The translations under genes were made by a program, and so were the position numbers. This document shows, piece by piece, positions 7,410 through 55,881 of a stretch of 64,000 nt of DNA; positions within the stretch are counted from its first letter, which is position 1, and each line of letters begins with the position of its first letter. The DNA lies in NCBI RefSeq assembly GCF_039536245.1, contig NZ_BAAAYN010000035.1, positions 62,001 through 126,000 on the forward strand. The letters run 5' to 3'. Under the pieces are notes generated by a model. It had not been told where the DNA came from and searched no databases. It saw nothing but the letters and a program-made list of their open reading frames with translations. This DNA is from Cryptosporangium minutisporangium. Its GTDB lineage: Bacteria; Actinomycetota; Actinomycetes; Mycobacteriales; Cryptosporangiaceae.

Positions 7410-7874
7410 ATGCGAGACAGCAGCAAGCGCATCATGACGGCGATCGCCGGTGTGGCGCTGGCCGGCGGCGCGGTGCTGGCGTCCGCACCGGCGGCCAAGG
7501 CCGCCACTGTCGGCAGCACGGCGACGACGGTCAACGCGGGCGCTCCGGGCGCCGCCGTCACCAGCTGGGACGACGACCGGGGCCGAGACGGCCGCTGGGG
7601 CGAGCGCCGTCACTGGGGCAAGCGCCACCACTGGGGCAAGCGTCACCACTGGGGCAAGCGCCACCACTGGGGCAAGCGCCACCACTGGGGCAAGCGCCAC
7701 TGGGAAGGACGTCACTGGGAAGGACGCCGCGGCCACCACCACTGGCGGACCCACGGACGCTTCCACAGCTACCACGAGGCGTGGAGCGTCGGTTCGCGTT
7801 ACCGCGGCTCGCGGTGGTCGTCCTTCGACTGCGACCGCATCGGCGGAGCCTGGGTGCTGCGCGTCTACGGCTGA
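7410..7874 (+). CDS. Secreted His-rich repeat protein
   Basis: A 154-aa exported protein. It has a positively charged start, a hydrophobic core (IAGVALAGGAVLASAPAA) and AKA-A cleavage near residue 31. Six tandem copies of a hexapeptide (HWGKRH type) and two WEGRH copies follow, then a non-repetitive C-terminus ending in a Cys-containing FDCDRIGGAWVLRVYG segment. GGGAGGT just before ATG 7410 fixes the start. Dense His/Trp/Lys/Arg suggests metal (Zn, Cu, Ni), heme or polyanion binding outside the cell, which is inference from composition. Family not recognised. Confidence 0.85.
   Translation: MRDSSKRIMTAIAGVALAGGAVLASAPAAKAATVGSTATTVNAGAPGAAVTSWDDDRGRDGRWGERRHWGKRHHWGKRHHWGKRHHWGKRHHWGKRHWEGRHWEGRRGHHHWRTHGRFHSYHEAWSVGSRYRGSRWSSFDCDRIGGAWVLRVYG
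7593..7730 (+). repeat. 18-bp coding tandem repeat (HWGKRH) plus 15-bp repeat
   Basis: Six 18-bp units run from 7593 to 7700; the five from 7611 are almost identical (CACTGGGGCAAGCGCCAC with one C/T change). Two 15-bp units TGGGAAGGACGTCAC-like follow at 7701-7730. The near identity at DNA level suggests recent expansion by slippage or recombination, so copy number probably varies. Confidence 0.9.
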
Positions 7875-20563: not shown

Positions 20564-20664
20564 CTCCGCTTCGGCTGGTGCTCGCGATCGGGGCGCGCAT
20601 GCTGCGGGCGGTGGACTCCGCGGGAGCGGCAGACACGGTGCCGAGCGTCGCAAAAACGGCGTAA
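20524..20664 (+). other. Out-of-frame C-terminal part of the SDR
   Basis: Read in the shifted frame, this encodes a segment (GRRNASLQLVNRLTPLRL, then RMLRAV) that matches the usual C-terminal helix region of SDRs of this type. It has no start of its own. Restoring the frame at 20519-20523 would give a protein of about 275 residues. Confidence 0.75.
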
Positions 20665-20949
20665 CCGCTCAAGGCGGGTGGGTTGCCGCCGACGTGCATG
20701 CTGTGCTGGTGGAATCGCCGAACCGCCGGACGGATGAGTCCGTGTCACCTGTTGGGTGCCGAACAGGTGCCGATGCGGAGCAGTTGCCGCTGAGGCTCGG
20801 CGAAGCAACCAGGTGCGCGGTAGCCTCGTGAACAGCGCGTGACCCACCAGGGAACGCGCGGCGGAGCGGCCGCGTTGTAGCAAGCAGATGTTGTTCGACC
20901 GGGCGATTCGTCATCGCCTGCCCCGTCCCGACTCGCCCGAGGATCATCG

Positions 20950-21093
20950 ATGGACCCAGTGACACCCTTCGCGATCGCTGTGATGACTCTTGCTGGCGGC
21001 GCCTTCGTACTCACGTGGGCAACGGAGAAGACGCGGCGGGCGACTCGTCCGGTTCGCGTCCGGGCCCAGCGTCGCCGCCCAACCGACCGCTGA
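20950..21093 (+). CDS. Small single-pass membrane protein, 47 aa
   Basis: ATG 20950 is preceded by CGAGGAT at a suitable distance. The peptide has one hydrophobic segment (FAIAVMTLAGGAFVLTW, residues 7-23) followed by a strongly basic tail (Arg-rich, ending DR), the pattern of a small bitopic membrane protein with its basic tail inside. A perfect hairpin lies 22 bases after the stop. No family recognised. The 285 bases upstream (20665-20949) show no other gene. Confidence 0.5.
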   Translation: MDPVTPFAIAVMTLAGGAFVLTWATEKTRRATRPVRVRAQRRRPTDR

Positions 21094-21115
21094 CAGCGAC
21101 ACACCGACTACCCCC

Positions 21116-21151
21116 GAACGGCGGGCGACCTCCAACGGTCGCCCGCCGTTC
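21116..21151 (+). terminator. Strong hairpin after the 47-aa gene
   Basis: Perfect 15-bp inverted repeat GAACGGCGGGCGACC / GGTCGCCCGCCGTTC with a 6-base loop. It is placed as a rho-independent-like stop, without a U-tract. Confidence 0.75.
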
Positions 21152-21360
21152 GCGTGCTGCGAACGGCCGCGAGGGGGACACCCCGTGACGGGGGCCCGGT
21201 TTTCGGGAAACCGCCCCTGAGGCGGGCCCGGATTCCTCCGGTGGTGGCAGCGCCTCGGGAGCGGGGTGCCTGTCGGGTGGCAGGGGCGAGGCCGCTGGGT
21301 GGGTTTCGTCGGTACGACACCGGTGTGGGGTTAGGCCCGGGATCGCATGCTGGGGGCCGG

Positions 21361-21640
21361 GGGGTGGTTGTCGCCGTTTCCGGGTGCTGCGGAGATGGTG
21401 GTCGCGCTTCCCGTGCCATGGTGCGGAAGACCCGACAACCACTGTGTGCGCTACCCGGAATGCGCGACAACCACCCCGCATTTCGCCGGAATTCGCGACA
21501 ACCACCCCGCGCGCCGCCCGGAAAGCGCGACAACCATCTGCGGGGCCACCCGGCGACCAACTCAACCGAGCAGCCGGTCACTCCCGTTGCCACGGCCGTT
21601 TGACGATGGGGCGGCCCGGGAGGGCGGCTTCGAGAAAACG
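21361..21640 (-). repeat. Dispersed repeat element, copy A (32-bp period, flips at CCATGG)
   Basis: TGGTTGT/TGGTGGT cores lie at 21365 and 21396 on the plus strand. After a CCATGG centre (21416-21421) the cores become ACAACCA at 21435, 21467, 21498 and 21530, giving spacings of 31, 32, 31 and 32. The innermost cores are symmetrical about the centre. Reverse-complemented, the element matches copy B (55541-55812) throughout, including a ~100-bp flank with TTTTC...CCATCGT. It fills the gap between the 47-aa gene and the response regulator. No coding potential is supported. Confidence 0.9.
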
Positions 21641-21660
21641 GGCCGCGCGGCGCGGGAGGT

Positions 21661-55099: not shown

Positions 55100-55522
55100 A
55101 TGAGTGAATCCCGGTCCGACGCCGACGGTGTCGAGGACGACGGCGTGCTCGACCCGGCCGACAGCCTCGACGACGACGACCTGCGCAGCGATCTCCTCGA
55201 CCGAGGCATCGATGCCGGTGACCGCTACCGCGCGTCCGATCGGTTCGGCACCACCGCAGCGGAGCAGGCCCGCGGCGAAAGCCTCGAGCAGTTGCTGGCG
55301 GAGGAGGAGCCGGACGTCAGCGCCGAGTTCGACGACGAGGACGAGGACGTCCCGGCCGACCTCGGCTCGTCGCCGCAGACCCGGGCCGGCCGCCTGGTCC
55401 AGCCGGACGAAGGCTCCCACGAGGACCAAGACTCCGAGGTCTACGCGCGGGACGCCGGGATCGACGGCGGGGGCGCGAGCGCCGAGGAAGCGGCCGTCCA
55501 CCTGGTGGACGAAGACCGCTAG
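55100..55522 (+). CDS. DUF5709 acidic protein
   Basis: A 140-aa highly acidic protein matching DUF5709: GVLDPADSLDDDDLRSDLLD near the start, ESLEQLLAEEEPDV in the middle, and a C-terminal AEEAAVHLVDED. Function unknown; the family is common in actinobacteria. GGACCCCCG precedes ATG 55100, 12 bases after the tetR stop. Followed by a small CCCGAA/TTCGGG hairpin (55536-55549) and repeat element B. Confidence 0.88.
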   Translation: MSESRSDADGVEDDGVLDPADSLDDDDLRSDLLDRGIDAGDRYRASDRFGTTAAEQARGESLEQLLAEEEPDVSAEFDDEDEDVPADLGSSPQTRAGRLVQPDEGSHEDQDSEVYARDAGIDGGGASAEEAAVHLVDEDR

Positions 55523-55540
55523 GGCCCGGCCGACACCCGA

Positions 55541-55812
55541 ATTTTCGGGAAAACCACCCGCTCGGGGCCGGCCATCGTGGAGCGGTCGCGGCAAACGAGG
55601 CGGCTCCGCCTGCTTGGCAGAGGCAGTCGCCGGATGGTTGTCGCGCTCTCCGGGTGACGCGCCGGATGGTTGTAGCGCCCTCGGGGTGACACACCGGGTG
55701 GTTGTCGCGCTTCCGGGGTGGCGCACGCAGTGGTTGTCGTGAATTCCGGACCATGGCACGGGAAGCGCGACAACCATCTCGGCGGCACCCGGGAACGGCG
55801 CCAACCATCCCC
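55541..55812 (+). repeat. Dispersed repeat element, copy B (32-bp period, flips at CCATGG)
   Basis: TGGTTGT cores start at 55635, 55667, 55699 and 55731, an exact 32-bp period. They flip to ACAACCA at 55770, and to CCAACCA at 55801, about the CCATGG centre at 55751-55756. Each unit reads GG(A/G)TGGTTGTCGCGC-TCCGGG with a variable end. The left flank (TTTTCGGGAAAACC ... CCATCGT) and the whole array match copy A in reverse. It fills most of 55523-55881, with no supported coding potential. Confidence 0.9.
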
Positions 55813-55881
55813 ACTGACAGCGCATGGGCTTAGGCGTGCCCGGGGGTTAAGGGCAGCTAACGGTGGGGGCTGGCGGGGGCG

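Follow-up and report, generated by a model that had tools for sequence, protein, structure and literature searches.

Two places in the window, by which we mean the whole 64,000-nucleotide stretch of the Cryptosporangium minutisporangium genome that was analysed, carry a short unit that is repeated on one strand, reaches the palindrome CCATGG and is then repeated on the other strand. These two places, copies A and B, raise the question of what kind of element is built in this way, and whether it was dispersed as a mobile element, is bound by a protein or acts as a folded RNA.

Structure of the two copies

A unit was defined as the 11-mer TGGTTGTCGCG or its complement, and the unit positions quoted are 11-mer starts. 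The parts of both copies are as follows.

21200–21216, + strand: degenerate unit TTTTCGGGAARACCACC (3 mismatches) of a second repeat family, left of copy A
21228–21357, + strand: copy A, leader segment (E 2e-21 with the nhmmer leader model, whose training set included copy A)
21365–21406, + strand: copy A, fixed side with two forward units (21365, 21396)
21396–21441, no strand: copy A, near-palindromic 46-bp centre with CCATGG at 21416–21421
21431–21536, − strand: copy A, array side with four inverted units (21431, 21463, 21494, 21526)
21537–21641, + strand: copy A, tail segment, in which a counterpart of the leader motif GGTCGTGGCAACG recurs in inverted form
55521–55848, no strand: ~328 bp in this genome where the congener G001 has 9 bp
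55538–55636, − strand: copy B, tail segment (tail model, whose training loci included copy B)
55542–55558, + strand: exact unit of the second repeat family within the copy B tail
55635–55741, + strand: copy B, array side with four forward units (55635, 55667, 55699, 55731)
55731–55776, no strand: copy B, near-palindromic 46-bp centre with CCATGG at 55751–55756
55766–55807, − strand: copy B, fixed side with two inverted units (55766, 55797)

The initial annotation had described copies A and B as arrays of 2 + 4 and 4 + 2 units spaced 31–32 bp apart, and the unit positions bear out this geometry, as they do the 13 bases between CCATGG and the innermost 7-mers on each side of both copies. The match between the copies in opposite orientation was also confirmed, with 108 of 128 positions identical without gaps and an E-value of 4.8e-46 over ~180 positions. 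The flank of ~100 bp that they were said to have in common is the tail segment (21537–21641 in A and about 55538–55636 in B). The interval proposed for copy A was slightly too short, since the leader at about 21228–21357 also belongs to it. As for the reported absence of an ORF, a coding-potential caller called no gene under A or B, but mechanical ORFs are present. The exact unit pair occurs 79 times genome-wide compared with 0 for a reversed-pattern control, which excludes chance.

A dispersed family with a fixed centre

A BLAST search with copy A against its own genome (G000, 9.2 Mb) gave at least 180 matching pieces among the best 40 of 130 candidates. Merging these pieces with the pattern matches yielded 47 loci, each of which was taken with up to 4 kb per side. 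A 48th locus (L222, contig C76) surfaced only among 20 loci of the second repeat family, and 48 is therefore a minimum. Copies A and B, which had been annotated as a dispersed repeat, are thus members of a family of at least 48 loci. A core profile found nothing convincing (best E 2.1) in 400 kb of other sequence from this genome, in regions chosen after the known copies were known. Unit pairs did occur in these regions (17, compared with 4 for the control); they were rejected as copies because they lie inside called genes, mostly in one coding tandem repeat.

The centre was resolved by script in 40 of the 47 loci. With every copy turned so that its smaller side is on the left, a choice that biases the left count downwards, the shorter side has exactly two units in 37 of these 40. 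This orientation is not arbitrary, because the first unit of the shorter side has a consensus of its own, TGGTTGTCGCCGtTTCcGGG, that differs from the array-unit consensus TGGTTGTCGCgCtttCcGGG. The facing units are 35 bp apart in 39 loci and 34 bp apart in one, under a script that retained only 34- or 35-bp centres; a 36-bp option was also scanned and gave no row. CCATGG stands at the centre of 32 of the 40 loci exactly and is one base off in the other 8. The longer side ranges from 2 to 30 units, with exactly four in 15 loci, and its intervals are 32 bp in 226 of 256 cases and 30, 31 or 33 bp in the rest. Some arrays reach contig ends (C2, C21, C27, C56 and C93), so that true lengths may be greater. 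Seven loci (L143, L147, L156, L167, L174, L181 and L186) are outside this anatomy set; a looser scan found both unit directions in several of them and one direction only in L186, and L156 is an array with a 30-bp period.

Unit identity is 0.75 within arrays compared with 0.65 between arrays, and 64-bp higher-order doublets are found in the arrays of contigs C11 and C105. Together these indicate local duplication. A CRISPR-like array was rejected, since the linkers are partly conserved and homogenised and are not unique spacers.

Leader, tail and a second repeat family

Models trained on 7 (leader) and 8 (tail) of the loci later matched found a leader of ~130–150 bp at 16 of the 47 loci, namely L156 and 15 of the resolved 40, and a ~105-bp tail likewise at 16 of the 47; the ends of the element are accordingly ragged. 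At the 9 leader-matching loci outside the training set the leader likewise adjoins the array. Neither model matched any of 40 other stretches of the same genome. In a genome-wide leader search, all 9 matches listed among the best 40 of 130 candidates adjoin arrays, the query's own included. Leader and tail share the motif GGTCGTGGCAACG in inverted form, and some copies also have an outer TTTTCGGGAARACCACC. We considered the latter as a terminal repeat of the main family, and it proved to be an independent repeat family.

This second family, with the core TTTTCGGGAARACCACC, has 41 exact copies in this genome and 0 in four relatives. It forms tandem arrays with a period of mostly 39–42 bp (loci L203–L222). 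Among 11 close pairs in opposite directions, 10 face inward, and 8 of these are 33–37 bp apart. Two repeat families of one genome thus follow a similar inward-facing grammar, the second with a 41-bp period.

Other tandem repeats were seen in the same material. The window has 18-bp tandem repeats within a called gene (7574–7717), and an uncalled gap elsewhere in the genome holds a perfect 72-bp tandem array after an inverted partial copy (L270:7003–7469). A coding tandem repeat with a 30-bp period (L271:15594–16024) is also from this genome and is unrelated to the main family.

Copies in related genomes

Exact unit pairs of the type described above were found in none of three congeners (G001, G002 and G003) and one family member. 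In a sample of the class, 1 of 393 other genomes had a single unit pair, and the reversed control gave single hits in three genomes. In a BLAST search of 397 genomes of the order (best 2 candidates per genome), the matches obtained beyond G000 were all short and weak and came from 7 genomes. One of these weak matches led to a copy in G002, which consists of two units, 35 bp, and two inverted units, with CCTGG at the centre, and which lies between convergent called genes. A further G002 copy was found among 39 blindly chosen 20-kb regions. This congener therefore has at least two minimal copies, each of the form 2 + centre (35) + 2 with no expansion beyond 2 + 2 visible. The motif in these units is shifted, with TGTGGC in 5 of 8 and TGTCGC in 0 of 8. 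We rejected the idea of a species-specific family on the strength of this G002 version, which is invisible to the exact pattern. Flanks of the G002 copies have short matches to loci L152, L159 and L184 that are not collinear with the element, and no synteny with the G000 loci examined is visible. Samples of 427 kb from G001 and about 427 kb from G003 showed no copy.

The ~328 bp present here at copy B are replaced by 9 bp in G001, while G002 and G003 hold other sequence at this site. The short G001 gap suggests an empty site at this one locus, with loss in G001 as the alternative. A target-site duplication is unreadable at copy B, as its flanks are too diverged from those of the G001 site. In G002 the same site contains, in place of the repeat, an 854-codon open reading frame between the flanking genes (L201:948–3512). 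The copy A gap is uninformative because G002 and G003 have unrelated and somewhat longer sequence there; a weak profile match in the G002 gap (E 0.5) was judged by eye to belong to a sequence that G003 has as well, rather than to a relic of the element.

A stricter de novo detector flagged 4 gaps in G001 compared with 4 in shuffled sequence, 8 compared with 4 in G000, and 10 compared with 2 in G002; four detector hits inspected in the congeners were simple tandem repeats without a flip, which leaves these counts with little weight. Plasmid and phage origins were both rejected. There was no plasmid match, and of 12 viral contigs with one exact pair each, none showed the 2 + 2 flip in a unit scan.

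As a separate observation, the window has a segment of ~490 bp between called genes (20660–21152) that is 75–85% conserved in the three congeners, one of which carries it at a different position. No gene was called in this segment and no Rfam match was obtained.

Position relative to genes

Genes were called from codon usage, with the window and the fetched loci as training sequence. At none of the 47 loci does the midpoint lie inside a called gene. Forty loci have two neighbours; these genes are convergent at 16 loci, co-directional at 23 and divergent at 1. With intergenic bases weighted from 464 kb of the same genome, convergent gaps are enriched (16 of 40 loci compared with 12% of intergenic bases, p = 8e-6) and divergent gaps are depleted (1 of 40 compared with 26%, p = 1e-4). 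Within co-directional gaps, 19 of 23 loci are closer to the 3′ end of the upstream gene (p = 0.003). This location fits tolerance of insertions away from promoters. When only oriented loci with two neighbours were considered (n = 35), 12 were ++, 8 were −−, 14 were convergent and 1 was divergent. The 12 and 8 co-directional counts give no clear orientation preference relative to genes.

A search for a recurrent neighbour gene family at the 47 loci gave only small groups, the largest spanning at most 7 of the 47, which we take to be common gene families. A linked autonomous gene was rejected on these grounds.

Conservation of the motif and pairing of the arms

We compared G/C positions outside the 11-mer search word, with the motif taken as positions 12–20. 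In unit 1 (37 loci) mismatches were found at 21 of 222 motif positions compared with 102 of 296 linker positions, and in array units (40 loci) at 24 of 240 compared with 191 of 480. Such unevenness would not be expected of neutral repeat decay, with the caveat that it was resemblance to copy A that initially identified the loci.

The initial annotation had predicted that the inverted units would fold into long hairpins. Predicted folds are indeed strong (z −6.0 and −4.4), but similar units placed in opposite orientations are expected to fold in this way, and the arms show little co-variation. In 39 copies, the 34-bp centre being excluded, the centre arms are complementary at 17.74 of 23 positions compared with 17.27 after permutation, a slight excess (z 2.6; 148 of 20 000 permutations were as good) that is helped by a few copies, the best-paired being L183, L153, L155, L158 and L173. 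G-T and A-C mismatches are similar in number (39 versus 32 at the 20 better-matched positions, and 45 versus 55 at all 23), which gives no RNA strand bias. Since the motif is conserved while the arms barely co-vary, it seems to be the site rather than the hairpin that is kept.

We rejected a transcription terminator, since in the copy A scan no terminator-like site overlaps the array; the one found is at 21643–21655, with 0.7 expected by chance. A known RNA family was rejected as well: four loci scanned against Rfam gave no match at the gathering score, just sub-threshold miRNA matches.

Origin and possible function of the array

We consider it probable that the family is a non-coding, non-autonomous mobile element of the MITE/REPIN type that carries sequence-specific sites and was later expanded as a minisatellite. 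A mobile element of the non-autonomous kind was one of the two readings offered initially, and it is supported by the loci in this genome (at least 48), the copy B gap of G001, the copies elsewhere in G002 and the leader and tail. The core is an imperfect palindrome of ~110 bp with four putative recognition sites, two facing two, around the CCATGG dyad, and with a site spacing of 32 bp, close to three helical turns. A putative trans-acting enzyme, not a recognisable RAYT, may bind the inward-facing sites, as proposed for REPINs, and have moved the core together with leader and tail. One arm would then have grown into a minisatellite in this species as its 32-bp unit was duplicated in tandem. 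The copies that survive may be mostly those lying just 3′ of genes, where an insertion is largely harmless. Several results count against this reading: no transposase was linked to the family, PF01797 being the one transposase family searched across the genome; genes beside the loci recur only as apparently common families; no target-site duplication was readable; the candidate empty site is a single locus; and the ends are ragged.

The other reading offered initially, a multivalent binding array, is compatible with the strong conservation of the motif, but no protein is known for it. In its broader form it would make the array a host-functional platform, whose phased duplex sites are bound by a nucleoid, chromosome-organising or regulatory protein and whose copies are kept for that reason. 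Conservation of the motif in all unit classes speaks for this, as does the regular geometry, with a spacing of 30–33 bp (exactly 32 in 226 of 256 intervals) and a centre distance of 35 bp in 39 of 40 loci, where the script retained only 34 or 35. The TGTGGC of G002 (5 of 8 units, TGTCGC in 0 of 8) is likewise what a co-evolving binder could produce. Tandem duplication alone also keeps spacing, however, and the number of units per array varies erratically between 2 and 30. The family is moreover sparse in the congener samples, it avoids the divergent-gene gaps where promoters lie, and there is no known binder. On balance we regard such a host function as unlikely. The more specific proposal, that a dedicated protein reads the 2 + 2 core of a bipolar array, that its specificity shifted from TGTCGC to TGTGGC and that array length tunes occupancy, strikes us as a good deal more doubtful; if true, mobility and a chromosome-organising role would be one system.

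The location downstream of genes and the strong predicted folds (z −6.0 and −4.4) could also point to an RNA element, in which the transcript of the upstream gene forms a long hairpin that acts as a terminator or serves in protecting or processing the 3′ end of the mRNA, a role proposed for REPs. We think this improbable. Arm co-variation is barely above permutation (17.74 versus 17.27 of 23 pairs, z 2.6), there is no G-T versus A-C bias and no clear orientation relative to genes, the copy A array is without a terminator-like site, and none of four scanned loci gave an Rfam match at the gathering score. Recombination and slippage alone, without mover or binder, might have spread a neutral minisatellite and would account for homogenised arrays, including the 64-bp doublets of C11 and C105. 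Such a process explains neither how copies with leader, centre and tail came to lie at unrelated loci nor why motif and linker are unevenly conserved, and we hold it to be very improbable.

Comparison with known systems

The element is short, non-coding, multi-copy and dispersed, as MITEs are. The text of a 2024 review of prokaryotic MITEs, in the excerpts at hand, has no words starting with Actino, Streptomyces or Mycobacteri (PMC10969869). A literature search at the level of titles and abstracts, with subscription journals thinly covered, gave no description of this sequence or of a bacterial strand-flipping array. The initial statement that no named family has this design thus holds for the sequence and the strand flip, but BrickBuilt and the REPINs are close precedents.

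The inverted palindromic doublet, the intergenic location and the preference for 3′ ends are also traits of REPs and REPINs. Excerpts of the literature describe REPINs as inverted REP doublets, with occasional tandem clusters, that are tied to RAYTs (PMC3116915), and GTAG/CGTC REPs as lying mostly downstream of coding regions (PMC3733652). As far as these excerpts go, the present family resembles REP doublets and REPINs as a short intergenic palindrome that has two inverted recognition sequences as its unit and lies 3′ of genes, and it resembles REPINs in forming some tandem clusters and in being presumably mobilised in trans. It differs from REPINs, as described there, in that the reiterated part is the 32-bp site of one arm and not the whole doublet, and in that no RAYT was detected. 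RAYT (PF01797), the only transposase family searched genome-wide, was found in 0 of 4 genomes (G000–G003) compared with 5 of 14 control genomes, and no GTAG/CGTC tag was seen by eye in the unit consensus TGGTTGTCGCgCtttCcGGG. A RAYT-dependent REP/REPIN was rejected for these two reasons. The question then posed is what moves or binds an inward-facing site phased at three helical turns when no RAYT is detected. With about fifty natural copies, the family lends itself to following the conversion of a small palindromic element into a tandem array.

Inverted arms made of short tandem repeats are found in the foldback elements of Drosophila. The likeness is one of design only, and these elements are eukaryotic.

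BrickBuilt of Porphyromonas gingivalis is described, in the excerpted text of PMC4596501, as a non-autonomous MITE with 19 copies, always intergenic and of narrow host range, in which a tandem minisatellite of variable length lies between leader and tail segments that bear small inverted ends, with no internal transposase. Its repeats are 23-nt tandem direct repeats, and both terminal repeats are present in only 4 of the 19 copies, according to the same excerpts (PMC4596501). On this description the family reported here is like BrickBuilt in being intergenic and narrow in host range and in having a leader, a tail and a variable tandem array with no transposase inside, leader and tail each being matched at 16 of 47 loci. 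Unlike BrickBuilt as described there, it is not an array of single orientation: in an actinobacterial host, its 32-bp units change strand at a fixed near-palindromic centre that separates a side of two units from a side of variable length. This flip was resolved at 40 of the 47 loci, and a looser scan shows it at some of the other seven. The present copies would extend minisatellite-bearing miniature elements to an actinobacterium and add to them the design of an array that switches strand at a fixed palindromic centre. By this comparison BrickBuilt is the nearest precedent, and the strand flip around an inward-facing core distinguishes the present family from it.
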